From a virus, in the IMG/VR virus record IMGVR_UViG_3300047557_001833, positions 1 to 41,237 of that record: 41,237 nucleotides of DNA; one strand, written 5' to 3'. Positions 1-8,862 of the stretch are shown piece by piece (the stretch's first letter is position 1; the number at the start of each line of letters is the position of its first letter). The notes below the pieces were generated by a model, which worked only from the letters and a program-made list of their open reading frames with translations, ran no database searches and was not told where the DNA came from. The translations under genes and the position numbers were made by a program.

Positions 1-68
1 CCCCAAAAGGGGCCCCCAGGTCGCCACCCTCGTTCTGCTATTACCACAACAAAAACAATCCTTTTTTG

Positions 69-602
69 CTATTGTATTTGTTTATCGTCTGTCACTGTAA
101 TTACTTTGTCTGGCAAAGCGTTCAACAGATTAATTGACACTGTAGCGTTTTCGCTTTGATCATTCCAACCAAACACTAAAGCAGACCGCTTTGCTAATGA
201 TGAAAGGACTTGTTCCCTTGTGTTTTCTTCACGAATATCACTGATGTCATATTTATCGACTCTTTCTAGTGTGGAAACTGCATCGCTTGCAAGCTTGGAG
301 CGCATTAATTTAGATAGGCTTTCGATTGATTGTTCTATTACAGGGTTTCTCTTTTCTAAGGAAACCTCTTTCACCATAGAAACAATTTTTGAGAAACCAG
401 TCTTGAAAGCCCGTTGCTCTAGTGTCGCTTTGTTTACTTGCAAATCGTTTGCAATCTCCGCCCAGCTTTCACCGGCGAGGCGGCGAGCCTTGGCAAGTTC
501 CCATTGATCTTTGTTCACCTTCACGACGACGAACCTACCCGTCCGGTCTTTGCCTTTCAACCTTTCGCTCCGTTCCCCTTGGCGGCTCCGCTTCGCTCCC
601 AT
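69..602 (-). CDS. HTH protein, possible small terminase subunit
   Basis: A 177-residue protein with a basic N-terminus, then a helix-turn-helix-like segment (about residues 33-70, containing GESWAEIANDLQVNKATLEQ). A charged helical middle follows, and a C-terminal stretch reading SALVFGWNDQSENATVSINL. This layout, an N-terminal DNA-binding domain, a helical core and a beta-rich tail, is typical of phage small terminase subunits, which recognise the packaging site and assemble with the large subunit. The frame stays open far upstream, but that part is antisense to the gene at 723. I chose the ATG at 602 because GGAAG lies about 9 bases upstream; a GTG just before VNKDQWEL is the alternative. 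It is divergent from the gene at 723 and far from the large terminase at 34145. The terminase role is inference; a transcription factor is possible. Confidence 0.55.
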   Translation of the reverse strand: MGAKRSRQGERSERLKGKDRTGRFVVVKVNKDQWELAKARRLAGESWAEIANDLQVNKATLEQRAFKTGFSKIVSMVKEVSLEKRNPVIEQSIESLSKLMRSKLASDAVSTLERVDKYDISDIREENTREQVLSSLAKRSALVFGWNDQSENATVSINLLNALPDKVITVTDDKQIQ

Positions 603-722
603 CCCCAGTCGCTTCCCAAACCCTCGTTTTCCCCTGTAAATCCGGCCTCGAAACCAGGTTCTGAAAAAAAGTGCAAAAAAGTTGTTGCGCTCCGTTTCGG
701 TCCGCTCTAGTCTGTCGTCGTC
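603..722. promoter_or_regulatory. Divergent intergenic control region
   Basis: These 120 bases separate a leftward gene (start 602) from a rightward gene (start 723) and should hold promoters for both. The left part is pyrimidine-rich and continues the composition of the flanking gene. The right part has an A-rich tract followed by a promoter-like pair at 685-713. No convincing leftward promoter was found by eye. Confidence 0.45.
685..713 (+). promoter_or_regulatory. Putative promoter, TTGCGC-17-TAGTCT
   Basis: A -35-like TTGCGC at 685-690 is followed after 17 bases by TAGTCT at 708-713, just ahead of the ATG at 723. The -10 form TAGNNT recurs at 7557 (TAGACT) and 8145 (TAGCGT), each after a TTGACA box, which supports a shared phage or host promoter type. 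The -35 match here is weak, and the start codon is only 10 bases downstream of the -10 box. Confidence 0.4.
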
Positions 723-1136
723 ATGAACGAAAACCAGTCCATTACTCCCAAGGAAACCCAACGCATCCTCGTTGCAATCGGCCTGTCCGTCGCGACGAAA
801 ACTTGTCCCGAAGTCGAAGTCTCCGACGTCGAAGCCGCTTGTCGCTTCATCCGATCCCGTTTCGACGACGTTGATTGGGATTGGGAAGACAATGCAGCAT
901 CGATCTTCGGCGACGACCGCCGCATTCCCGTCTGCGAAGACGACGAAGGAAACGAGGCTCATTTCACGATTCGACTTGTTGGTCAACGCATCGTTGCAGT
1001 CTTCCGTAAACCTTCTGGCGAAACCGTCATCGATTCGTCTTACCACGGTTCCATCGATGAAGCGAAGGAAGTCGCTTTTGAAGACGCCAACCGCTACGGT
1101 TGGAACCTTGTTTCCGTTGCCACCGTCAACGCCTAA
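723..1136 (+). CDS. Hypothetical acidic protein, 137 aa
   Basis: First gene of the rightward cluster of small unknown proteins. The product is acidic, with an alpha-helical N-terminus (ITPKETQRILVAIGLSVATK) and a beta-strand-rich second half (HFTIRLVGQRIVAVFRKPSG) ending in a helix. No catalytic motif or membrane segment is visible and I do not recognise the family. The ATG at 723 follows a promoter-like element by a few bases, without a Shine-Dalgarno sequence. The gene at 1148 follows after 11 bases, so the two are probably co-transcribed. Its location next to genes of plasmid/phage hypothetical type suggests an accessory early gene. Confidence 0.7.
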   Translation: MNENQSITPKETQRILVAIGLSVATKTCPEVEVSDVEAACRFIRSRFDDVDWDWEDNAASIFGDDRRIPVCEDDEGNEAHFTIRLVGQRIVAVFRKPSGETVIDSSYHGSIDEAKEVAFEDANRYGWNLVSVATVNA

Positions 1137-1147
1137 CCAACAAATCC

Positions 1148-1522
1148 ATGAATTACCCAGAACAAATTCCCGCCGCCTACTCCACCGATTCCGCTTTGGA
1201 ACGTGCCTATCGCATAGGATGGAACCACGGCCACGGAATCGCTTGTCACAACGTGCCTTCAATCGGCGATTCGATCGATCGATCGGTCGACTGGATTGGA
1301 CTCGGGAAAACCGTCACGCCGGAAAATATCGCCGAATACCACGAATGCCTTTGCTACGCCGCCGAGTCCTGTTCCCGTGAGTATTCCCCCTTCGAATTCG
1401 TCGCCCATGAATTGAACGAATCCGACGACTCCGAATCGCTTTGGGAGGCTTTCGAATCCGGCGTCTCCGATTCGATCCGATTCGATTTGAAAGGCTATTC
1501 CTACGCCGTCGAAACGGTCTGA
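1148..1522 (+). CDS. Hypothetical protein, 124 aa
   Basis: A 124-residue acidic soluble protein containing AYRIGWNHGHGIACHNVP near the N-terminus and LWEAFESGVSDSIRFDL near the C-terminus. The pattern of an 'A.R.GW.HG' helix and a later 'ESG.SD' helix resembles conserved hypothetical proteins of mobile elements, but I cannot name the family. Its ATG at 1148 is preceded by ACAAATCC rather than a Shine-Dalgarno site, like several neighbours. The coding sequence is unusually rich in GANTC sites, with six between 1381 and 1500. The stop codon runs directly into the structured spacer at 1534. Confidence 0.7.
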   Translation: MNYPEQIPAAYSTDSALERAYRIGWNHGHGIACHNVPSIGDSIDRSVDWIGLGKTVTPENIAEYHECLCYAAESCSREYSPFEFVAHELNESDDSESLWEAFESGVSDSIRFDLKGYSYAVETV

Positions 1523-1533
1523 TTCCCGATCAT

Positions 1534-1575
1534 CAGGCTATCGGAAACGGTAGCCTGTCATCGGCGATCATGCCG
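1534..1575 (+). promoter_or_regulatory. Tandem intergenic hairpins, GAAA tetraloop (copy A)
   Basis: Directly after the stop codon at 1520-1522 comes a 10-bp stem (1534-1543 with 1548-1557) closed by GAAA, a GNRA tetraloop. A second small stem follows (CGGC at 1562-1565 with GCCG at 1572-1575). The same arrangement recurs at 2741-2784 with compensating base changes, so it probably acts as RNA. An A-rich leader CACAAAAACAATCC then precedes the next start at 1599. Confidence 0.7.
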
Positions 1576-1598
1576 AATCACAAAAACAATCCAATCCC

Positions 1599-1973
1599 AT
1601 GACACTGCATTCCCCATTCATCATCTCCTCCCGTTTGCTCCCCGCTGTTTCAATCGGCAAAGGAAGCGAACAAATCACCGTTTCGCTCTCCCCGTCGGGA
1701 TTCATCATGGACGGCCCATTCGGCGAGCATCGGGTCACCGGACTCAGGCTTTCCCCGCTTTGCAATTCCATCGAATCCGCTTTTGAGACTCTGCTCTCGT
1801 TTATGACGGCGGCTGCCGAATCCTTCCGTTACAAGGGAATGGACGGCGAAAACTCTGACTTGTTCCCCGCCGAGGTCACCGAGGCAATCTCTCAGGTTTC
1901 ATCGGAGCTTGAATGCGTTTGGTTCGAGATTCACTCGGCCATCGAATCCGATGAATCCCTTGTCACCGAATAA
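1599..1973 (+). CDS. Hypothetical protein, 124 aa
   Basis: A 124-residue soluble protein with a beta-rich N-terminal half (PFIISSRLLPAVSIGKGSEQ onward) and a helical C-terminal half (ESAFETLLSFMTAAAESFRY and following). There are no recognised motifs and no clear signal peptide. The ATG at 1599 lies behind the leader CACAAAAACAATCC with no Shine-Dalgarno site. It sits between two structured or leader-type spacers in the rightward cluster and is 21 bases from the next gene. Function unknown; the reading frame is supported by neighbour spacing and by consistent codon use. Confidence 0.65.
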   Translation: MTLHSPFIISSRLLPAVSIGKGSEQITVSLSPSGFIMDGPFGEHRVTGLRLSPLCNSIESAFETLLSFMTAAAESFRYKGMDGENSDLFPAEVTEAISQVSSELECVWFEIHSAIESDESLVTE

Positions 1974-1994
1974 ACCCAAAGCCCATCAAATCCC

Positions 1995-2312
1995 ATGATC
2001 CTGATTTCCCGCACCTATGAAATCGTCACGCCGGAATCCGCCGAATTCGGGGAATCCGACGATGCCGGTTTTATCTGTCAATCGGAGCCTGTAACCTTTC
2101 GCGAGTTGGTCGACTTGATGCGCGAGCATCCCGTCCCTTCGTCCTATCCTTGTGGAGGTACCCGATGGGATTGGCTTTCGTCATATTCCGAAACGAACTA
2201 TCGGGACGCGAGCGAAAGGACGGAATCCCTTCATTACGACAAATCGAATCCGCCGTCCCGCGACAAATACTGGCGCAAGGCAATGGTGATTGCCGGAATC
2301 CGGGTCCGCTGA
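1995..2312 (+). CDS. Conserved mobile-element hypothetical protein, 105 aa
   Basis: A 105-residue protein beginning with ISRTYEIVTPESAEFGESDD and containing TFRELVDLMREHPVPSS, then RWDWLSSY and a C-terminal RDKYWRKAMVIAGI. From memory this order (YEIVTPESAE...FRELV.L...PS...YW..A...AG) matches a conserved hypothetical family common in phages and plasmids of diverse bacteria. No activity is known to me. The ATG at 1995 is preceded by CATCAAATCCC and lacks a Shine-Dalgarno site. The stop at 2310-2312 is fused to the start of another structured spacer. Confidence 0.75.
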   Translation: MILISRTYEIVTPESAEFGESDDAGFICQSEPVTFRELVDLMREHPVPSSYPCGGTRWDWLSSYSETNYRDASERTESLHYDKSNPPSRDKYWRKAMVIAGIRVR

Positions 2313-2322
2313 TTCCCCGCGC

Positions 2323-2351
2323 GGCTTTCCACGGGGAAACCCTGGGGAGCC
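2323..2351 (+). promoter_or_regulatory. Intergenic hairpin with GAAA tetraloop (copy C)
   Basis: After the stop codon, GGCTTTCC (2323-2330) can pair with GGGGAGCC (2344-2351), including two G-U pairs. The enclosed bases form a second stem, GGG-GAAA-CCC (2333-2342), again capped by a GNRA tetraloop. The flanks (ATTCCCCGCGC before, CTGGCGGCGAATCA after) align with the elements at 1534 and 2741. The leader CACAAAAACAATCC follows before the ATG at 2395. Confidence 0.6.
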
Positions 2352-2394
2352 TGGCGGCGAATCAAATCCGATCCCCGATCACAAAAACAATCCT

Positions 2395-2730
2395 ATGACC
2401 AAAAACGAAGAAATCCAGATCCTCACCGCCGCCGCCGATAGTCTCGGTCCCGATTCCTACTGCGGCGCGTGGCTTCGCGAGCAAATCCCTTTCATCGAAA
2501 GCGATATCCGCTCCGACGTTGAACCTGGGATCCTGGCAAGCGCTTCACTGCAGGAATGGACGCGCCGATGCGCGGAAATGCGGGCGGAGGCTATGCGTGA
2601 CCGTGACCGGATCCTTTCCGATGCGCGCAAGGAAGCGGATCAAATCCGCGCGCAAGCGGTCCGGTTTAATGAACTGCAGCGGGATGAATTGAAGCGGACG
2701 TTGCGCGCGATTCTTGACCGGATTTCCTGA
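2395..2730 (+). CDS. Hypothetical helical protein, 111 aa
   Basis: A 111-residue protein, mostly helical, with a charged coiled-coil-like C-terminal half (RAEAMRDRDRILSDARKEAD through ELQRDELKRTLRAILDRIS). The N-terminal part contains DSYCGAWLREQIPFIESDI. No catalytic motif was found. Upstream in-frame codons would extend into the structured spacer, so I chose the ATG at 2395, which has the same CACAAAAACAATCC leader seen at 1599. Its length and helical make-up would suit a small oligomerising or nucleic-acid-associated protein, but that is a guess. Confidence 0.65.
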   Translation: MTKNEEIQILTAAADSLGPDSYCGAWLREQIPFIESDIRSDVEPGILASASLQEWTRRCAEMRAEAMRDRDRILSDARKEADQIRAQAVRFNELQRDELKRTLRAILDRIS

Positions 2731-2740
2731 TTCCCCGCGC

Positions 2741-2784
2741 GAGGCTATCCGCAAGGGTAGCCTCTGGCGGGCGATCACCGCCCG
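2741..2784 (+). promoter_or_regulatory. Tandem intergenic hairpins, GCAA tetraloop (copy B)
   Basis: A 10-bp stem pairs 2741-2750 with 2755-2764 around a GCAA (GNRA) tetraloop. A second stem pairs CGGGCG (2768-2773) with CGCCCG (2779-2784). Compared with copy A, the closing pair changes from G-C to C-G, and the outermost pair and the second stem also change while keeping pairing. The element begins 10 bases after the stop codon of the preceding gene. Confidence 0.7.
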
Positions 2785-2797
2785 GATTCAAAATCCT

Positions 2798-3235
2798 ATG
2801 ACCACACAAGAAACCATCACAAAAGCGGAGCTTTGCTCTCTACTCCGTAAATTCATCGCGCAACGGTCCGGGCTGGACTGGCGCGATTATGGGCACGATG
2901 CGGCTGGAATGCGAGCGTTCCGCGCGAACCGGGACCTGATCCTGCAGCATGGTCGGGATGCGCGGGCGCTTCTGTCGTTCGTCCAAAAATGGTCATCGAT
3001 CCCGGTTGACTATCTCCTGTCGGAGCTATCGGCGGGCAAGCGGCTTTCGTTCGATCCTGCGCGCAACGCTATCGACTACTGCGCGGGGCAATATTTCCCG
3101 ACGGAATACCGTGCGGCTGTTTGTCGTGCGCTTTCGTCTGCGCTTTGGCGTTATCACGTCAATCTTGGCACGTCCGACGTGCGCGCCTGGGCGGTCGAAG
3201 CCTTTGGTCGTGGGATCGCTTCGCGTTGGTTCTGA
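2798..3235 (+). CDS. Conserved mobile-element hypothetical protein, 145 aa
   Basis: A 145-residue protein with FIAQRSGLDWRDYG near residues 20-33 and a C-terminal core reading IDYCAGQYFPTEYRAAVCRA followed by SSALW. This DYC.GQY.PTEYR..A..VL.SALW pattern is one I recognise from conserved hypothetical proteins on plasmids and phages, where it often sits with other small unknown genes. No biochemical role is known to me. The ATG at 2798 follows AAAATCCT without a Shine-Dalgarno site; upstream in-frame codons fall inside the hairpin element and were rejected. The next gene starts 18 bases on. Confidence 0.75.
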   Translation: MTTQETITKAELCSLLRKFIAQRSGLDWRDYGHDAAGMRAFRANRDLILQHGRDARALLSFVQKWSSIPVDYLLSELSAGKRLSFDPARNAIDYCAGQYFPTEYRAAVCRALSSALWRYHVNLGTSDVRAWAVEAFGRGIASRWF

Positions 3236-3253
3236 CCTATTCCCCGCGCACCT

Positions 3254-3466
3254 ATGACTATTGAAGAAGCCAAAGCCTATTTGCTGAATCGACAAGCTGA
3301 CGGTGTTTTTGGTTACTCATGGGAAGAGATAGCCAAAATGCAGCGCTCCGGGAAAATCCGGGTAAATGCCCAGAAAATGCGGATGAACGCCCGTAAATGC
3401 GCGCGCTGCGGAAAGCCTGTGAAGAAAAACAGTCTGCTTCCGCGCTGCCCTAAGTGTCAGCTCTGA
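3254..3466 (+). CDS. Small zinc-ribbon protein, 70 aa
   Basis: A 70-residue basic protein. The N-terminal half is helical (TIEEAKAYLLNRQADGVFGY). The C-terminal third has two CxxC pairs, KCARCGKP and PRCPKCQL, giving a four-cysteine zinc ribbon at about residues 48-68. Such small ribbons bind DNA, RNA or protein partners; nothing here says which. Only 18 bases separate it from the upstream stop, and these hold CCCCGCGC, the same motif that opens the hairpin spacers, but no hairpin. ATG chosen as the first in frame after that spacer. Confidence 0.7.
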   Translation: MTIEEAKAYLLNRQADGVFGYSWEEIAKMQRSGKIRVNAQKMRMNARKCARCGKPVKKNSLLPRCPKCQL

Positions 3467-3514
3467 CCCATCCTCCGCGCGCCATCGCTCCTGGCGGTGA
3501 CGCGAAAGGGTGGG
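3467..3514 (+). promoter_or_regulatory. Long intergenic hairpin after stop codon (E)
   Basis: Immediately after the TGA at 3464-3466, CCCATCCT (3467-3474) pairs with AGGGTGGG (3507-3514). Inside, CGCG (3476-3479) pairs with CGCG (3501-3504) and CGCCA (3480-3484) with TGGCG (3492-3496) around a 7-base loop. That gives about 17 pairs in 48 bases. It occupies the same post-stop position as the GNRA hairpins but differs in sequence. It lacks a T tract, so it does not look like a simple intrinsic terminator. Confidence 0.6.
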
Positions 3515-3553
3515 CCAGTTGAGCCTGTCCGATTCACGAAACAAAAACGACCT

Positions 3554-3751
3554 ATGCAAAAAATCGAAAACGAAACTGTTCTGTTCGACATTCCCGATTC
3601 CGTCCTGGATCGGTGCGATGGTCCGATATGGGAAGCGATGCGAGCGGCAGGGTATGACGGTTCCCCGCGCGTGTTCATCAACCATTGGGACTGTTGGGGA
3701 CTGACTGTTGGAGAGTTTCTGGAACAGGTGCGGGCGTCTGAAACCGTTTGA
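3554..3751 (+). CDS. Hypothetical protein, 65 aa
   Basis: A small acidic soluble protein of 65 residues containing DIPDSVLDRCDGPIWEAMRA and VFINHWDCWGLTVGEFLEQV. The tryptophan-rich second half suggests a compact globular fold, but no family is recognised. The ATG at 3554 follows GAAACAAAAACGACCT, a leader almost identical to that of the next gene at 3777, which supports this start over codons further upstream. The gene lies in the rightward small-gene cluster, 25 bases before the next start. Confidence 0.6.
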   Translation: MQKIENETVLFDIPDSVLDRCDGPIWEAMRAAGYDGSPRVFINHWDCWGLTVGEFLEQVRASETV

Positions 3752-3776
3752 AGCATCACAAAAACAAAAACGACCT

Positions 3777-4007
3777 ATGCAATACACGTTACACGACACG
3801 TTCAACGATTACATCATCTCCCGCCACCGGACCCTAGAGGGTGCGGTGCGGGCCGATCTTGCCCATGCGCGGGCGGTCAAGCGGTTCCATGGGCCAAACT
3901 CCTACCTTCCCACTGAAATCCGGCGCGACGGGCGGAGGTTGGACAATGATGATTTTGAGGCGATGCAGTCAATCTCGTTGTGGATCCAGACTGGGGGTGT
4001 CCGATGA
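3777..4007 (+). CDS. Hypothetical protein, 76 aa
   Basis: A 76-residue protein with HDTFNDYIISRHRTLEGAVR near the N-terminus and EIRRDGRRLDNDDFEAMQSI near the C-terminus. It appears to be a small alpha/beta domain that recalls short phage proteins with 'tlEeAv.a...h.r' helices, but I cannot name the family. The start is set by the leader ACAAAAACGACCT directly before ATG, which repeats the leader at 3541. The stop TGA overlaps the next start in an ATGA, indicating translational coupling. Confidence 0.6.
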   Translation: MQYTLHDTFNDYIISRHRTLEGAVRADLAHARAVKRFHGPNSYLPTEIRRDGRRLDNDDFEAMQSISLWIQTGGVR

Positions 4008-4216
4008 GCGAGCATCTATGGGGTGTCACGCGGCAGAAGCCATCGCGAGCCACGGCGCGGAAGTGGGATCGGGTCTGCCGGGAGGCTGGCGGCTATGGGT
4101 TTGTGGAATCGACAGATGCTGCGGGATATCTCGGATGGTTTTCCGGTCCGAATCGCGGCCATCCGTTTGATCGGCAGTTGGAGCAGCGTGTTGCGGAAGC
4201 GATCAACAAGCGGTGA
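4004..4216 (+). CDS. Hypothetical protein, 70 aa
   Basis: A 70-residue protein starting in the ATGA that ends the previous gene. It includes RATARKWDRVCREAGGYGFV and GWFSGPNRGHPFDRQLEQRV. The composition is basic and soluble, with no membrane segment or known motif. A different frame across the same bases is also open but does not match neighbour spacing. The next confident gene starts at 4266 after a 49-base spacer in which I see no clear regulatory site. Function unknown. Confidence 0.55.
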   Translation: MSEHLWGVTRQKPSRATARKWDRVCREAGGYGFVESTDAAGYLGWFSGPNRGHPFDRQLEQRVAEAINKR

Positions 4217-4265
4217 CGGTGAACCAGGGGCGCGGCTGGTCAACGCGCGGAACAAGAACGAATCC

Positions 4266-4676
4266 ATGAATGCAATTTTGTTATCGGCTTTGATGGCTGT
4301 GGAGACTGGTGGCGAGCGCAACCCGGACTTGGCTATTGGTGATGGGGGGCGGGCCATTGGGTGTCTCCAGATTCATCGTGCGGTTGTCCTGGATGTGAAC
4401 CGGATCGCTGGGACGCATTACACCCACGACCAGATGACAAATCGGGTTGCGGCTAGTCGTGTCTGCGAAATCTATCTCGACCACTATGGGAAGGGTTTGG
4501 ATGATATTTCCCGTGCGCGGGTGTGGAACTCCGGTCCTCGTGGCCATCTAAAGGACTGCTCGCGGGCGTATGGGGAGCGGGTGAGGGTGGCGATGGAGAA
4601 GGAACGTGTAAGTGATGCTTACAAGTTGCAGGATTTGTCGGGTGGTAAACCAACGAAACGAAAGGAGAAGCGGTGA
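4266..4676 (+). CDS. Lysozyme-like transglycosylase (SLT type), 136 aa
   Basis: A 136-residue soluble muramidase-like protein. The N-terminal LMAVETGGERNP carries the likely catalytic glutamate (E13), followed by GRAIGCLQIHRAVVLDVNRI, which matches the 'G..QI....' block of soluble lytic transglycosylases. VWNSGPRG corresponds to the late 'R.WNGGP.G' block of phage members. The enzyme would cleave peptidoglycan glycan strands, either for lysis or for genome entry. No signal peptide is seen, so it would need a holin or virion packaging. The frame is open further upstream, but homology-like sequence begins at the ATG at 4266. It ends in AAAGGAGAAGCGGTGA, which supplies the ribosome site and GTG start of the next gene. 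Confidence 0.75.
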   Translation: MNAILLSALMAVETGGERNPDLAIGDGGRAIGCLQIHRAVVLDVNRIAGTHYTHDQMTNRVAASRVCEIYLDHYGKGLDDISRARVWNSGPRGHLKDCSRAYGERVRVAMEKERVSDAYKLQDLSGGKPTKRKEKR

Positions 4677-4876
4677 AACTGACTATTCAATCGAAGCAGA
4701 ACGCGCAGACGATCATTGATTTGTTCAACGCGATCATCACGGGTGAGGTATCGGAGCATGGGGCTACGCCTATGAGTATTTACGATGAGGAGAAGCATAT
4801 CTGTTCCATTGTGGCTGCGAATGGTGATCAGATTTTGGAGTTGGTGATTGAGAGGGAGGAGGGTGACAAGGTGTGA
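4673..4876 (+). CDS. Hypothetical protein, 67 aa
   Basis: A 67-residue acidic protein (TIQSKQNAQTIIDLFNAIIT, then a beta-rich C-terminal half). It starts at a GTG overlapping the upstream TGA, with AGGAG 6 bases ahead. This is the same stop/start architecture used repeatedly in the small-gene array at 11-13 kb. No family is recognised. It is coupled downstream to the next gene through a TGATG overlap. The coupling suggests it is translated together with the transglycosylase at 4266. Confidence 0.6.
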   Translation: MKLTIQSKQNAQTIIDLFNAIITGEVSEHGATPMSIYDEEKHICSIVAANGDQILELVIEREEGDKV

Positions 4877-5073
4877 TGGCCAATGATCCGAGTTATCGGG
4901 AGTTGTATCTTAAATATTACGGATTGTACGCGCGCGAAGAGGGGCGATTTCAGCGTTTGCTGTTTATGACCCGTGAACTGGCGAAGCGGATTCCGAAGCG
5001 AGGTTTGGAATGGAAGAGGTGGAAGGACTACGAAAAGCAGATTGAAGAAAGCGAATGCAATGAATCTGACTGA
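4876..5073 (+). CDS. Hypothetical helical protein, 65 aa
   Basis: A 65-residue, highly charged, helical protein (LKYYGLYAREEGRFQRLLFM then KRGLEWKRWKDYEKQIEESE). The start is ATG at 4876 in a TGATG overlap with the previous stop, or the GTG one codon earlier. No membrane segment or motif is visible. It overlaps the next gene at 5060 by 14 bases in another frame. The compact overlapping arrangement is typical of phage early operons; its function is unknown. Confidence 0.55.
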   Translation: MANDPSYRELYLKYYGLYAREEGRFQRLLFMTRELAKRIPKRGLEWKRWKDYEKQIEESECNESD

Positions 5074-5344
5074 TTATGTTTTGGTGCATAAAAAGGACCA
5101 TGAATATCTCGAGAAAATGGTTTCGGAGCTTGAAGCTGAGAATTCGCGGATCATGAACCATGATTTGGTGAAGCACGCATGGCTTGCTGAATCGATGGAA
5201 GACAAGGCGAAACGGATGATTGAGCTTGGGAATCGGATGGCTGACCGGAGCGGATGTGTTTGCTGGATGCCGGGGTCTCCGATTTTGATATGCAGCAAAT
5301 GCCAGAAAGCGATTGCTGAGTGGAAAAAATTTCTGAACTTATGA
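5060..5344 (+). CDS. Small coiled-coil/zinc-motif protein, 94 aa
   Basis: A 94-residue protein with a charged helical N-terminal part (VHKKDHEYLEKMVSELEAEN) and a C-terminal cysteine cluster CVCWMPGSPILICSKC that could hold a zinc ion (CxC then CxxC). The pattern suggests a small nucleic-acid or protein-binding module. The ATG at 5060 overlaps the previous gene. Longer in-frame extension upstream is antisense-like shadow and was not used. The stop overlaps the next start in ATGA. Confidence 0.6.
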   Translation: MNLTDYVLVHKKDHEYLEKMVSELEAENSRIMNHDLVKHAWLAESMEDKAKRMIELGNRMADRSGCVCWMPGSPILICSKCQKAIAEWKKFLNL

Positions 5345-5556
5345 AACCCATCGGCTTCAAGTTACAGCAGAAGGGTGCGCTTGGATGGTTTGATTTGAAG
5401 GTGCGCGGCCAAAGTGGGGATTGGGAGCCGTCTATTTGGGTGGAGCGGGCGGAGGCGACTCGGTATGCGCGGCGGCATTTTGGGGATTTGTACGCGCGCG
5501 GGGATGTGATGGTGATGCCGAGCAGTGTGTCGGAGGATTATGATGTTTATGGGTGA
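5341..5556 (+). CDS. Hypothetical protein, 71 aa
   Basis: A 71-residue protein beginning MKPIGFKLQQKGALGWFDLK and containing ERAEATRYARRHFGDLYARG. It looks like a small beta-beta-alpha domain. The start is the ATG in the ATGA overlap with the upstream stop; an in-frame GTG at 5320 is less likely. No family is recognised. After its stop there is a 64-base spacer before the HNH gene at 5621. I see no terminator in that spacer. Confidence 0.55.
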   Translation: MKPIGFKLQQKGALGWFDLKVRGQSGDWEPSIWVERAEATRYARRHFGDLYARGDVMVMPSSVSEDYDVYG

Positions 5557-5620
5557 CGCATGGATACTTCCAAAACAGTTGGCCACCTTGGCCTGTGCGC
5601 TGGATCTGAACAGTTGACAA

Positions 5621-6052
5621 ATGACAGCCGTTCCCCACCATCTTTCAATGAGTTGCATTCCAGACACCAAGAAAACACTCGAGATGCATGAGCTGTACAA
5701 ACAGGGCTTCAGTATTTCGCAAGTAGCAAGAGCGTTCGGAGTTAGTCGCCAATCAGTTTTTTCAAGGTTCCAACGAGCCTCACTAGAAACCAGATCAAAG
5801 CGGTTCCTCCCGTTCATTTACTTCAACGGAGCCAAGTACACCAAGCGAGTCAATGGATACTACGGACGCACTGACAAGGACCGCTCATTCCTGCACCGAG
5901 ACGTGTGGGAATCAGCCAACGGCAAAATCGCAGACGGGTTTGATATCCACCACATCGACGGTGACAAAACGAACAACGATCTGTCGAACCTTGAGCTTCT
6001 ATTGAAGTCTGAACACACCAAGAAGCACCACGCAATCAACACTCAAAAATGA
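5621..6052 (+). CDS. HNH homing endonuclease, 143 aa
   Basis: A free-standing HNH endonuclease. Residues about 20-50 form a helix-turn-helix (MHELYKQGFSISQVARAFGV). The nuclease core at the C-terminus reads DIHHIDGDKTNNDLSNLELL with the paired histidines at 110-111, N119 and a trailing histidine around 132 (SEHTKKHH). Such proteins make a DNA break at an intron-less target and spread by recombination. Start: ATG at 5621, with ATG at 5648 an alternative that would still keep both domains. Its stop overlaps the ATG at 6049 (ATGA). It is a mobile gene, probably inserted next to the methyltransferase rather than part of it. Confidence 0.85.
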   Translation: MTAVPHHLSMSCIPDTKKTLEMHELYKQGFSISQVARAFGVSRQSVFSRFQRASLETRSKRFLPFIYFNGAKYTKRVNGYYGRTDKDRSFLHRDVWESANGKIADGFDIHHIDGDKTNNDLSNLELLLKSEHTKKHHAINTQK

Positions 6053-6981
6053 GCAAATGCACAGTCATCATCCCGTCATCCCTTACGTCAGTCTTTGCTC
6101 AGGATACGAGGGCATCGGCCTTGGACTGCACCGCTGTATCCCGAATCTTCGAGCAGTCGCTTACTGCGAGAGGGAAGCATTCGCCGTCGCGAATCTGGTT
6201 GCGAAGATGGAAAACGGATTCTTGGATTCGGCCCCTGTTTTCACAGACGTTGCAACTTTCCCCTGGGCAGAACTCACTGAAGTCATGGCTGGAGGAGTTC
6301 TCTCGTTCGGGTGGCCTTGTCAGCCAGTCAGCACCGCAGGAAAACGCAAAGCAACCGAAGATGAACGGTGGCTCTTCGACATCATTGCAGATGGAATTGC
6401 CATTATGCGACCGGGAATCCTATTCGCCGAAAACGTCGAAGGACTCCTTTCAGCCAAGATGCCAGATGGATCTTCAGTCTTTGGCCACTGCATCCAGAGA
6501 TTGGAAAGCCTACATTACCGAGTTGCGGCAGGCATATTCAGCGCGTCTGAAGTTGGCGCACCGCACCAGCGAAAGCGGGTGTTCATCCTGGCCTACCGCA
6601 TCGGCGCGGGATGGGAAGGATTCGCCAGGGGCATGGATGTATGCGGTGACGGATCGGAATCGGGAGGATCAGTTGGCCAGAAAGGTGTACGCGGTCGAGT
6701 TTGGCCGAGCCGTCCTGGCGAACGGCAATACGGATGGGAGCCGCCGAGAGTCGTTGGAGTGGCCGACACCATCATCAGCCGGAGTGACGGGAGGCCCGAC
6801 GGGTCTTGCAGGTGGAGCCGGGAATCGGGAGAAGCTGGCGTCGATGCTACCGGAAGCGGAAGCCAAGGCGATGGGATGCGGCAAACTCAACCCCCGCTGG
6901 GTGGAGACACTGATGGGCCTGCCAGTGGGATGGACTATGCCCAGTTGTCGGTCTCCTGTGACAATAGAACGGATGAGTTAA
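6049..6981 (+). CDS. Overlapping-frame protein nested on the methyltransferase, 310 aa
   Basis: A 310-codon frame that starts in the ATGA ending the HNH gene and covers nearly the whole methyltransferase in another frame. Its second half is not random shadow. It contains EYSARLKLAHRT-like sequence (written here QAYSARLKLAHRTSESGCSS), the motifs SSWPTASARDGKD and WPTPSSAGVTGGP, and a C-terminal GKLNPRWVETLMGLPVGWTM. I recall this combination (WPTP..D.KG ... LNP.WVE.LMG.P.GWT) from proteins annotated in many phages beside C5 methyltransferases. Its role is unknown; it could be a separate partner protein or an alternative C-terminus reached by frameshifting. The N-terminal 80 residues look like shadow, so the true start may be internal. 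Confidence 0.5.
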   Translation: MSKCTVIIPSSLTSVFAQDTRASALDCTAVSRIFEQSLTARGKHSPSRIWLRRWKTDSWIRPLFSQTLQLSPGQNSLKSWLEEFSRSGGLVSQSAPQENAKQPKMNGGSSTSLQMELPLCDRESYSPKTSKDSFQPRCQMDLQSLATASRDWKAYITELRQAYSARLKLAHRTSESGCSSWPTASARDGKDSPGAWMYAVTDRNREDQLARKVYAVEFGRAVLANGNTDGSRRESLEWPTPSSAGVTGGPTGLAGGAGNREKLASMLPEAEAKAMGCGKLNPRWVETLMGLPVGWTMPSCRSPVTIERMS

Positions 6982-7055
6982 GGTTATTGGGTAATGGAGT
7001 AGTACCACAGACTGCTGATTTGGCCTTTCGTGTACTGATAAAAGAGTTATTGTGA
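6057..7055 (+). CDS. DNA (cytosine-5) methyltransferase, 332 aa
   Basis: Transfers methyl from S-adenosylmethionine to carbon 5 of cytosine in DNA, probably to protect the phage from restriction. All core motifs are in order in one frame: motif I SLCSGYEGIGLGL (12-24), the catalytic PCQ of motif IV (87-89, cysteine 88), ENV of motif VI (125-127), QRKR of motif VIII (171-174) and the C-terminal GNG-VVPQ of motif X (312-318). The region between VIII and X, the target recognition domain, is glycine-rich and of unusual composition. That matches its overlap with a second open frame at 6049-6981. The ATG at 6057 lies 8 bases after the competing ATG at 6049. It follows a homing endonuclease gene with no spacer. 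Confidence 0.85.
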   Translation: MHSHHPVIPYVSLCSGYEGIGLGLHRCIPNLRAVAYCEREAFAVANLVAKMENGFLDSAPVFTDVATFPWAELTEVMAGGVLSFGWPCQPVSTAGKRKATEDERWLFDIIADGIAIMRPGILFAENVEGLLSAKMPDGSSVFGHCIQRLESLHYRVAAGIFSASEVGAPHQRKRVFILAYRIGAGWEGFARGMDVCGDGSESGGSVGQKGVRGRVWPSRPGERQYGWEPPRVVGVADTIISRSDGRPDGSCRWSRESGEAGVDATGSGSQGDGMRQTQPPLGGDTDGPASGMDYAQLSVSCDNRTDELRLLGNGVVPQTADLAFRVLIKELL

Positions 7056-7312
7056 AGACAAACAATCTAACAACAACATCATTTCGGATCGACTGTTCCG
7101 ATCTATTGATATTACAAAAGCGAGCGGATGAATTGGGGTTTCGGTCATGGGGAGCGTTTGTGCGTCATGTGATTGACTGTCATGTGATGTTTTTCGAGCC
7201 TGACCTGCTTGCCCGTCTGAGCGGGCCACTACCCCCGAATCGGCCGGAAGGAGCATCCGGCAATCAAAATCGCTCTACGGGGCATTTCCGCTCCAGCAAA
7301 CAGCATCCTTGA
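7052..7312 (+). CDS. Ribbon-helix-helix-like protein, 86 aa
   Basis: An 86-residue protein. Residues 8-45 (TTSFRIDCSDLLILQKRADE and the following GFRSWGAFVRHVIDCHVMF) fit a ribbon-helix-helix DNA-binding fold: a short beta strand, then two helices. The proline-rich tail is disordered. Start: GTG at 7052 overlapping the methyltransferase stop. It may regulate its own operon or the palindromes downstream at 7492-7566, but that is inference from position. The fold assignment is moderate because no search was run. Confidence 0.55.
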   Translation: MKTNNLTTTSFRIDCSDLLILQKRADELGFRSWGAFVRHVIDCHVMFFEPDLLARLSGPLPPNRPEGASGNQNRSTGHFRSSKQHP

Positions 7313-7371
7313 CCATGGATCGGATCGCCAACTTGATCGGATGGACGACTGATCGCTTTTTTCGGGGGGTT

Positions 7372-7506
7372 GGAAATCCGCAGCGGGGAGCGTGGGGCCC
7401 CGACGGAGGCCCCGCAAGCGAAACCGCGAAAAGCGGATTTCCTGTACTCCCTTTTAAGGGGAGTACTTACGTCTCCCAAAAGGGGAGGTAGTTAGCCTCA
7501 TGCTAA
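7372..7506 (+). ncRNA. Candidate structured RNA or folded control region
   Basis: The longest gene-free stretch (7313-7589) is packed with inverted repeats. GGAAATCCGC (7372-7381) pairs perfectly with GCGGATTTCC (7433-7442) and encloses an 8-bp GC stem (7392-7399 with 7408-7415). Next come GTACTCCC (7444-7451) with GGGAGTAC (7459-7466), CTCCC (7473-7477) with GGGAG (7483-7487), and TTAGC (7492-7496) with GCTAA (7502-7506). Competing pairings exist: CCGC at 7424-7427 with the same GCGG, and GCGGGG at 7383-7388 with CCCCGC at 7410-7415. It could be a small RNA, a switch-like leader or a replication origin. Confidence 0.5.
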
Positions 7507-7534
7507 GGACAGACGAAGGAAGATGCGTATTAGA

Positions 7535-7562
7535 TTGACAAAGATCTGAGAAGGCTTAGACT
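7535..7562 (+). promoter_or_regulatory. Promoter TTGACA-16-TAGACT
   Basis: A perfect -35 box TTGACA (7535-7540) is followed after 16 bases by TAGACT (7557-7562), 27 bases before the ATG at 7590. The same -10 form TAGNNT is seen at 8145 and 708. The -10 box lies inside a 13-base palindrome, so the promoter looks repressible. Confidence 0.65.
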
Positions 7563-7566
7563 AAGC
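7554..7566. promoter_or_regulatory. Operator-like palindrome over the -10 box
   Basis: GCTTAG-A-CTAAGC is a perfect palindrome with 6-base arms, centred on the -10 box of the promoter at 7535. A related inverted pair TTAGC/GCTAA lies at 7492-7506. The regulator is unknown; the RHH-like protein at 7052 and the HTH protein at 8260 are candidates by position. Confidence 0.5.
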
Positions 7567-7589
7567 GTTCGGAATCGGGAATAAAACTT

Positions 7590-8099
7590 ATGTACACTAC
7601 AGATGGACGGACTTTGAGGCAGCTTTTTCGGGATATGCCGCCGAAATCGCATAACATGGATCAGAGCAAGAGTGATGTTCTGGCCTACATATCACAGCAG
7701 CTTAATAGCGATATGCTTATCGCTATTCGGGCGTTCAATTCGATGCGTAATCCCAATAGCAAGGTATTGGTATTCGATTCGATTGAGCGTGTGTGGATGG
7801 GGTGCGATTGGTTGCCTGATAATAAGGAAGCCAAGGAAGAGTATCTGATACGAGAGGTCCGCTCCTGGGACAGGAAGGTGGCCGACTTGAAGGCGGAGGT
7901 GTCCAGCCTTGAGAAGGAGAACCACGACCTGAAGAAGCGGCTGAAGAAGCAGGAGGAGCGGTTTGACAGTTTCTATGGCAAGGTGGCCAAATGGCTGGAG
8001 GCTCTTGTCGATCACGCCGGGATCGATCCCGAAAACTACGTTCCCGAAGGCGAGAAACAGGCCGAAAACAGGGATCCGCGAGCGATGATGGGGGAGTGA
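7590..8099 (+). CDS. Hypothetical coiled-coil protein, 169 aa
   Basis: A 169-residue protein. The N-terminal part (about 1-75) is globular and contains SDVLAYISQQLNSDMLIAIR. Residues about 85-135 form a strong coiled coil (KVADLKAEVSSLEKENHDLK and following), so it probably dimerises. The tail is charged and disordered. It is the first gene behind the promoter at 7535 and is followed by a second promoter at 8122, so it may be transcribed as a single unit. No family is recognised. The ATG at 7590 has no strong Shine-Dalgarno site. Confidence 0.7.
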   Translation: MYTTDGRTLRQLFRDMPPKSHNMDQSKSDVLAYISQQLNSDMLIAIRAFNSMRNPNSKVLVFDSIERVWMGCDWLPDNKEAKEEYLIREVRSWDRKVADLKAEVSSLEKENHDLKKRLKKQEERFDSFYGKVAKWLEALVDHAGIDPENYVPEGEKQAENRDPRAMMGE

Positions 8100-8121
8100 A
8101 AAAGATTTTTGGAAAAAGTTT

Positions 8122-8150
8122 TTGACATCCTGAAAGACGACTGGTAGCGT
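8122..8150 (+). promoter_or_regulatory. Promoter TTGACA-17-TAGCGT
   Basis: TTGACA (8122-8127) is followed, after exactly 17 bases, by TAGCGT (8145-8150), with an A/T-rich tract upstream. It should drive the recombination genes from 8260 onward, leaving a leader of about 100 bases. Together with 7535 and 685 it defines a TAGNNT -10 class in this genome. Confidence 0.65.
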
Positions 8151-8209
8151 ATCGAAACAATTTGAGTGATTGCGGAATGGAGCCGATGGAGAGCGTCGGA
8201 CGAGGGGTT

Positions 8210-8249
8210 GGGAACGGTTCCCCTGTGACGAACACCGCAGTCACTTTTT
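8210..8249 (+). promoter_or_regulatory. Leader palindrome and hairpin with T tract
   Basis: In the leader ahead of the gene at 8260, GGGAAC-G-GTTCCC (8210-8222) is a perfect 13-base palindrome. Just after it, GTGAC (8225-8229) pairs with GTCAC (8240-8244) and is followed by TTTTT (8245-8249). It could be an operator plus a weak attenuator. The second stem is only 5 pairs, so terminator activity is uncertain. Confidence 0.35.
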
Positions 8250-8259
8250 CAAAAATGCG

Positions 8260-8862
8260 ATGATCAAAGTTTGGGACATCAAGACGGCGGCGAAGGAGTT
8301 GCACGTTTGCAGAGAGACGCTCTGGAGATTGATCCGGTCAGGGAAGATGCCGCATCGGCGGGTTGGTCGGCGTGTGTTGCTGACCGAGGCGGATGTGGCG
8401 GCGCTCTTGGAGGACGCGGCGATCAGGAACGGGGCGACGAATCCATTTGCTCGGAAGGGGAAGCCATCGAAGAAGAAGAAGGTGGCCGACCTGACCGAGA
8501 AGCAGTCAGAGAATACAAACCAACAGAATACCAATGAACAGCAACAGCAGCATGACGGTGGCGGTGTCGCAACCGCAGGAAATAACGACCCCGGCACAGA
8601 CGGGGGAGTTCTACGACAAGATCAACAACCCGATGGAGGCGATCAAAACCATGGGGGAATGGATCGCGCACTCGGGGATGTTCGGGTGTGTGAAACCGGA
8701 GCAGGGCTATGTATTGGCGATGGAGTGTCTGGCGTCCCGGCAGACCCCGCTAAGCTGGAAGCGGGAGAACCACTTGATCAACGGAAACATCACCATGAAG
8801 AGCGAGTCGATGTTATCCGGGTTGATGCAAGCTGGCTGGGACATCGACTGGGTTCGGTTTGA
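8260..8862 (+). CDS. Excisionase-like HTH protein with long overlapping tail, 200 aa
   Basis: Residues 1-55 are a winged helix-turn-helix of the excisionase/MerR-like kind (IKTAAKELHVCRETLWRLIR, then HRRVGRRVLLTEADVAALL). Then come a lysine-rich linker (GKPSKKKKVADL) and a Gln/Asn-rich stretch. From about residue 92 the frame runs through the 5' part of the RecT-like gene (8534 onward) and becomes Gly/Asp/Gln-rich low-complexity sequence, ending at 8862. Such DNA-binding proteins are usually 60-120 residues, so the 329-base overlap is odd. Either the tail is real dual-coding sequence or the frame simply lacks an early stop. The ATG at 8260 was chosen because it directly precedes the HTH fold. 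It probably regulates the promoter at 8122. Confidence 0.65.
   Translation: MIKVWDIKTAAKELHVCRETLWRLIRSGKMPHRRVGRRVLLTEADVAALLEDAAIRNGATNPFARKGKPSKKKKVADLTEKQSENTNQQNTNEQQQQHDGGGVATAGNNDPGTDGGVLRQDQQPDGGDQNHGGMDRALGDVRVCETGAGLCIGDGVSGVPADPAKLEAGEPLDQRKHHHEERVDVIRVDASWLGHRLGSV

Follow-up and report, generated by a model that had tools for sequence, protein, structure and literature searches.

Stop-codon-paired RNA hairpins between small early genes of uncultured phages and their likeness to the RNase III sites of phage T7

Hairpin elements and neighboring genes in the viral record

The window analyzed here is the whole of IMG/VR virus record IMGVR_UViG_3300047557_001833, a stretch of 41,237 bases. 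Four of its genes, all on the + strand, frame the features described below: they encode proteins of 124 residues (beginning MNYPEQIP; 1148-1522), 105 residues (MILISRTYE; 1995-2312), 111 residues (MTKNEEIQ; 2395-2730) and 145 residues (MTTQETIT; 2798-3235). A protein-family search with the neighboring genes returned nothing informative. The early genes between 600 and 4500 have no Shine-Dalgarno-like leaders, and the heptamer most often found before the ATG in this phage group is AAATCCC (61 of 127 leaders). The nearest named match to the helicase comes from Verrucomicrobia phage P8625, at 36% over 38% of the protein.

Each of the first three genes ends in an imperfect hairpin of about 50 nt on the + strand that starts exactly at the TGA stop codon. 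Element A (1520-1570) opens with a helix P1 (1520-1524/1566-1570) that includes the stop codon at 1520-1522. Above it follow a mismatch (1525/1565), a second helix P2 (1526-1530/1560-1564), an internal loop (1531-1533/1558-1559) and an upper stem P3 (1534-1543/1548-1557) closed by the loop GAAA (1544-1547). This element scores 72.3 bits with a covariance model and its pairing is supported by covariation. Element B (2310-2364) has the same parts in the same order: P1 (2310-2315/2359-2364) with the stop codon at 2310-2312, a C.C mismatch (2316/2358), P2 (2317-2320/2354-2357) and an upper stem (2323-2335/2340-2351) that carries one bulged base at 2332 and the loop GAAA at 2336-2339. It reaches 37.4 bits with covariance model R2 and 18.3 bits with the first model. 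Element C (2728-2777) consists of P1 (2728-2732/2773-2777) with the stop codon at 2728-2730, a mismatch (2733/2772), P2 (2734-2738/2767-2771), P3 (2741-2750/2755-2764) and the loop GCAA (2751-2754), and scores 62.1 bits with model R1 and 69.2 bits with model R2. The folds of A, B and C were each better than all 200 dinucleotide shuffles of the same sequence (z scores of -5.3, -5.8 and -4.0, respectively), and an unfiltered scan of the window returned no confident covariance-model matches besides these three elements and their own reverse-strand echoes.

A preliminary description of this DNA had reported GNRA-capped hairpins in three spacers. These hairpins are present with the loops given above, but they had been taken to start inside the element, whereas the whole hairpin begins at the stop codon. 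The region proposed for A, 1534-1575, thus combines the upper stem with an alternative downstream stem (P4, described below); the same holds for C, and the region proposed for B corresponds to the upper stem. The three spacers were also called consecutive, which is not strictly so because a 21-nt spacer between A and B (1974-1994) yielded no hairpin on folding. A and B had been described as identical in architecture, but B is the more divergent copy, and A most resembles C.

A degenerate fourth copy, termed type D, lies at 3464-3517 on the + strand (9.7 bits, E = 4.3). It begins at the stop codon (3464-3466) of a Zn-ribbon-like gene (3254-3466) and its loop is no longer GNRA, although relatives of this type in five other contigs (L009, L100, L108, L227 and L243) have kept both the layout and a GNRA loop. 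The spacer just upstream of the Zn-ribbon-like gene (3236-3253, CCTATTCCCCGCGCACCT) contains TTCCCCGCGC, which corresponds to the 5' half of a C-type element and runs straight into the leader of the next gene; it looks like a decayed or truncated copy.

Conservation and covariation of the family

Covariance-model searches of related genomes, which had been suggested at the outset, found copies on roughly 100 IMG/VR contigs. This number is our own tally over the searches, in which reverse-strand matches reflect the palindromic nature of the hairpin; model R1 was built from 16 sequences. The contigs carry one to five copies each, always on the coding strand and within similar arrays of small genes. 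Each of the 22 relatives of the gene upstream of A, on viral contigs, has the hairpin at its stop codon. An independent scan looked for hairpins that start from any stop triplet; of the 131 distinct elements that it returned, 127 lie where an open reading frame of at least 40 residues ends. Of 1,412 other stop-anchored hairpins, 95 coincide with the end of an open reading frame (at least 50 residues). In the general layout, a basal helix of 5 bp that contains the stop codon is separated by a 1x1 mismatch from another 4-5 bp, above which come a small internal loop and an upper stem of 10-12 bp with a GNRA loop; a strict version of this layout was found in 79 of 138 elements and in none of the 1,412 other hairpins.

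Within this layout several details recur. The elements are 48-55 nt long (50-52 nt in 108 of 115 distinct copies), and their ends resemble TGATTCC/AATCA in the sequences listed. The sequence of P1 (TGATTCCC) is strongly conserved. The mismatch is C.C or C.U and is shifted by one position in B-type copies, where P2 has 4 bp instead of 5 bp; the internal loop is 2-3 by 2 nt and the upper stem, usually of 10 bp, begins 13-14 nt past the first base of the stop codon. A GNRA loop caps 108 of the 115 distinct copies (GAAA in 54, GCAA in 46, GCGA in 4 and GUAA in 4), and the remainder mostly have the pentaloop GCAAU. The third pair from the loop is U.G in 86 of 108 copies.

The pairing itself is upheld by covariation. 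In a plain MAFFT alignment of 16 sequences, 97.8% of the cells were paired and 14 of 20 pairs had changed on both sides, with a covariation score of 0.532 against 0.195 +- 0.022 after shuffling and at most 0.114 when the partner strand was slid. Among 117 distinct copies, in an alignment that was fitted to the model and so leans toward the structure, 95.1% of the cells were paired, 16 of 20 pairs had changed on both sides, 439 cells held double changes compared with 118 after shuffling, and the score was 0.573, compared with 0.190 +- 0.008 after shuffling and no more than 0.103 after sliding. The preliminary description had argued from covariation and GNRA loops that the hairpins are a selected RNA. 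Covariation could not be proven from three sequences, yet the relatives establish it, and the claim is strongly upheld across the roughly 100 related contigs.

The stop codon takes part in this covariation. Its second base pairs as G-C in 88 copies, as G-U in 22 and as A-U in 5 (TGA:TCA, TGA:TTA and TAA:TTA); selection therefore acts on this position of the helix as a base pair. Since the stop-anchored scan required the first four pairs, its counts describe the types of pair rather than their frequency; in the model-fitted alignment, the second pair was unpaired in 5 of 117 copies. Read on the gene strand, the counted pairs of P1, P2 and P3 include 104 G.U cells and 9 A.C cells. This excess favors a + strand RNA over a structure in DNA, but as support only, because pairs 1-4 were forced by the scan and the RNA-folding filter favors G.U.

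In most copies, the sequence just 3' of P1 is able to pair with the 3' strand of P2 and P1, forming an alternative hairpin that we call P4. The P4 of element A (1562-1575, + strand; CGGC-GATCAT-GCCG) is mutually exclusive with P1 and P2 and conserved in most relatives, and that of element C (2768-2784, + strand; CGGGCG-ATCAC-CGCCCG) has 6 bp, with the same tail and following sequence in contig L006 folding at -11.9 kcal/mol. Across copies, P4 occurs in several versions, including CGGC/GCCG, GGGT/ACCC, GGTGA/TCACC, GGTC/GACC and GAATC/GATTC. Element tails folded with their own downstream sequences at -6.39 kcal/mol, compared with -4.21 +- 0.19 kcal/mol when partners were permuted, and none of 5,000 permutations was as low, a significance that is inflated by relatedness among the 80 distinct combinations. 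P4 is common and not essential, because the subfamily that begins TGAATCC has none.

We found the elements to be a structured RNA family that is absent from Rfam. No Rfam release 15 model matched the window at its gathering score, and relaxing the threshold to E values up to 5 over 1450-3600 gave only two chance-level matches, both away from the elements. Among 50,697 named phage records none had a DNA match to 1500-2860, and phage P8625, the nearest named helicase relative, had no covariance-model match. Distant relatives of the gene before B (at most 59% identity; L109-L125) have no hairpin. Contigs that were found through their primase contained no copies, but since most of those loci exclude the early region, this does not show that the elements are absent there. 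A pattern for B- and C-type copies gave seven scattered matches in 84,980 cellular genomes, one of which scored with the model (L302; 22.5 bits, E = 0.009); we read these as chance. A literature search, of incomplete coverage, found no described phage RNA in which the stop codon is paired.

Several further observations concern divergent or similar hairpins. Upper stems of copies on the same contig (59 distinct sets) are 28% identical over 10 nt, compared with 37% between genomes, and no two are identical, as if near-identical repeats within one genome were avoided; the control for this comparison is rough. In contig L107 a divergent element (1189-1250, TGACTTCCCGTCC...) has a minimum-energy fold that consists of the upper stem and P4 rather than P1 and P2. 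Contigs L227 (at 8059) and L233 (at 3711) carry divergent elements after a gene of 228-230 residues (MKSLLSIDTN or MTKNLLSIDT); their ends pair as TAA:TTA and TGA:TCA and their sequence is unlike TGATTCCC, but they have a similar layout and a GNRA loop. In other phages (L198 at 1311, L192 at 5215), a nearly perfect hairpin of about 55 nt and unrelated sequence starts from the stop codon (TAG...TTA) of a gene of 221-222 residues (MATVNLYRTK).

Proposed role in processing of early mRNA

We propose that the elements are probably RNase III processing signals that punctuate a polycistronic early mRNA and work like the early sites of phage T7, to which they can be compared by model as well as by layout. 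When two element models were run unfiltered over both strands of the T7 and lambda genomes (88 kb), T7 R1.1 ranked first with each (17.9 bits, E = 0.025; 18.6 bits, E = 0.016; E values from a short calibration). A search of T7 positions 1-8500 alone again put R1.1 at the top (E = 0.0024), with R1 in third place (E = 0.98); the match to R1 ends at position 5887, the known cut. These matches cover the upper stem and loop only; R1.1 alone was clearly recovered, and R0.3, R0.5 and R1.3 were not. In the folds made here, the T7 cuts (890, 1468, 3138, 5887 and 6448) lie beneath the upper stem, on the 3' side. Of the three functions offered in the preliminary description, a processing site is thus the best supported by virtue of this resemblance. 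The second-best match of model R2 in the same search was in lambda, downstream of ea31 on the - strand (L305, 24395-24370; CAGGUCAUUGGCAACAGUGGCAUGCA; 16.4 bits, E = 0.075); it resembles the upper stem of T7 R1.1 and might be an RNase III site or a chance match.

By analogy with T7, host RNase III would cut on the 3' side of the internal loop, at 1559^1560 in A, 2353^2354 in B and 2766^2767 in C. The upper stem with its GNRA loop would then stay on the upstream mRNA and cap its 3' end. On the downstream mRNA, the freed 3' strand of the lower stem could refold into P4, placing a hairpin at the new 5' end shortly before the next start codon. A hairpin a few nucleotides from the 5' end protects an mRNA. 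More speculatively, since the lower stem includes the stop codon and the 11-14 nt or so after it, a terminating ribosome would hold it open, and cutting may wait until translation ends. The strong conservation of stop-codon pairing, of the P1 sequence and of the U.G pair goes beyond the known needs of RNase III alone and hints that something else reads the element too. A fuller version, which we regard as tentative and rather doubtful, is a translation-gated processing switch, in which cutting and refolding into P4 would occur only once the upstream gene is no longer translated, with the element serving as the 3' module of each gene and brought along as genes are exchanged.

A terminating ribosome could also act without RNase III. 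It would cover the stop-codon strand and leave the 3' strand to pair as P4, thereby tuning translation or decay of the next gene. The stop codon does lie in the helix (it terminates an open reading frame in 127 of 131 copies), P3 starts just outside a terminating ribosome, whose footprint ends just before that point, and P4 reuses the P1/P2 strand, which fits the sequence downstream of the same copy better than sequences permuted among copies. A switch of this kind is nevertheless hard to reconcile with a whole subfamily that lacks P4 and with a next start codon that lies 17-48 nt beyond the element (median 26 nt) and is free in both folds. The identity of the downstream gene speaks against it as well: judged by the first five residues, the gene of A precedes 10 different downstream genes and the gene of B precedes 8, and it is with the upstream gene that the element stays. 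We therefore consider it unlikely.

The elements could instead be bound by an RNA-binding protein of the phage or the host, in the manner of boxB and N or of a similar regulator, and be repeated so that each early gene is controlled. The nearly invariant GNRA loop, the conserved U.G pair near it and the few GCAAU pentaloops would fit such a site, but conservation spans a helix of about 20 bp whose upper stem varies freely as long as it is paired, unlike the short boxB, and we judge this reading quite improbable. Slightly less probable still are passive 3'-end stabilizers of the REP type, or Rho-dependent or imperfect terminators, even though stable GC-rich hairpins directly after genes are what these would look like. 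None of the copies is followed by a U-run (0-4 T among the 8 nt beyond the element), on which ground we rejected plain intrinsic terminators, and no element was among the terminator-like sites of 600-5600. Nor was there a promoter-like site in that region, and with the next gene only 17-48 nt away transcription must therefore read through; we infer that neighboring genes are co-transcribed. A plain stabilizer, moreover, would need no fixed mismatch, fixed internal loop or stop-codon pair.

Action at the DNA level, as a recombination site or attC-like cassette end for gene shuffling, is the least credible reading and one we hold to be very remote: the same upstream gene can precede up to 10 different genes, and in L006 the stop codon of the gene of A leads cleanly into element C and the gene that follows C, but G.U outnumbers A.C on the gene strand as for RNA, the elements always point the same way as the gene, their ends are not attC core sites, and a short shared sequence suffices for such junctions by homologous recombination. 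The L006 junction is what would result from exchange of genes along with their 3' element, or from recombination in the conserved ends. Stop-codon readthrough was rejected separately: the frame after the TGA is not kept, given element lengths of 48-55 nt, and C has a stop 30 nt on.

The family is new to Rfam, and across roughly 100 uncultured phage contigs it shows a stop codon that covaries within a helix. If the elements are indeed RNase III sites, the T7 strategy of dividing early mRNA into single-gene pieces would be shared, in almost the same layout, by an unrelated group of phages. More than 100 natural variants would then be available from which to learn what RNase III reads in the mismatch, the internal loop, the U.G pair and the GNRA loop. 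That small early genes can be exchanged without disturbing the genes next to them would likewise find an explanation.

Comparison with known systems

Several known systems share single features with the elements. Integron attC sites are also imperfect hairpins at the 3' ends of exchangeable small genes, but the mismatch bias of the elements points to a + strand RNA and their ends lack attC core sequences. Intrinsic terminators likewise place a GC-rich hairpin after a gene; the elements differ from them in having no U-run, a conserved mismatch and internal loop, and a next gene close behind. The boxB hairpins of the lambda nut sites have GNRA-type loops and lie in early operons, whereas the elements have a much longer helix that is tied to the stop codon and whose upper stem is not conserved in sequence.

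The closest resemblance is to the early region of T7, where R1.1 is a proven RNase III substrate that a single cut divides into fragments of 47 and 13 nt (PMC4858673, PMC6121014). The elements differ from the T7 sites in that almost every copy has the stop codon within its helix, where it covaries, in their far more conserved P1 sequence and GNRA loop, and in the wide occurrence of P4. They also sit at the 3' ends of many different genes in a different phage group, in which cleavage is proposed by analogy. What the two share is mainly the layout and the upper stem. The T7 sites, too, lie between early genes and have an upper stem of 9-10 bp with a tetraloop, U.G pairs near the loop and a small internal loop. 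With a lower stem and an upper stem of about 10 bp each, the elements amount to some two turns of helix, as T7-type RNase III sites do. T7 R1, as folded here, consists of 4 bp, a 1x1 mismatch, 5 bp, a 2x3 internal loop, 9 bp and a tetraloop, nearly the layout of the family; R0.3 and R1.1 come almost as near and have GCAA loops, and the 1x1 mismatch in the lower stem is common to R0.3, R1 and R1.1. The R0.5 hairpin begins exactly at the TGA of gene 0.4, as the elements do at their stop codons. In R1.1 the loop region reads CAUUC-GCAA-GAGUG, compared with CAUUC-GAAA-GAGUG in many elements, and this site also has a downstream hairpin that reuses a strand of the lower stem, much as P4 does.
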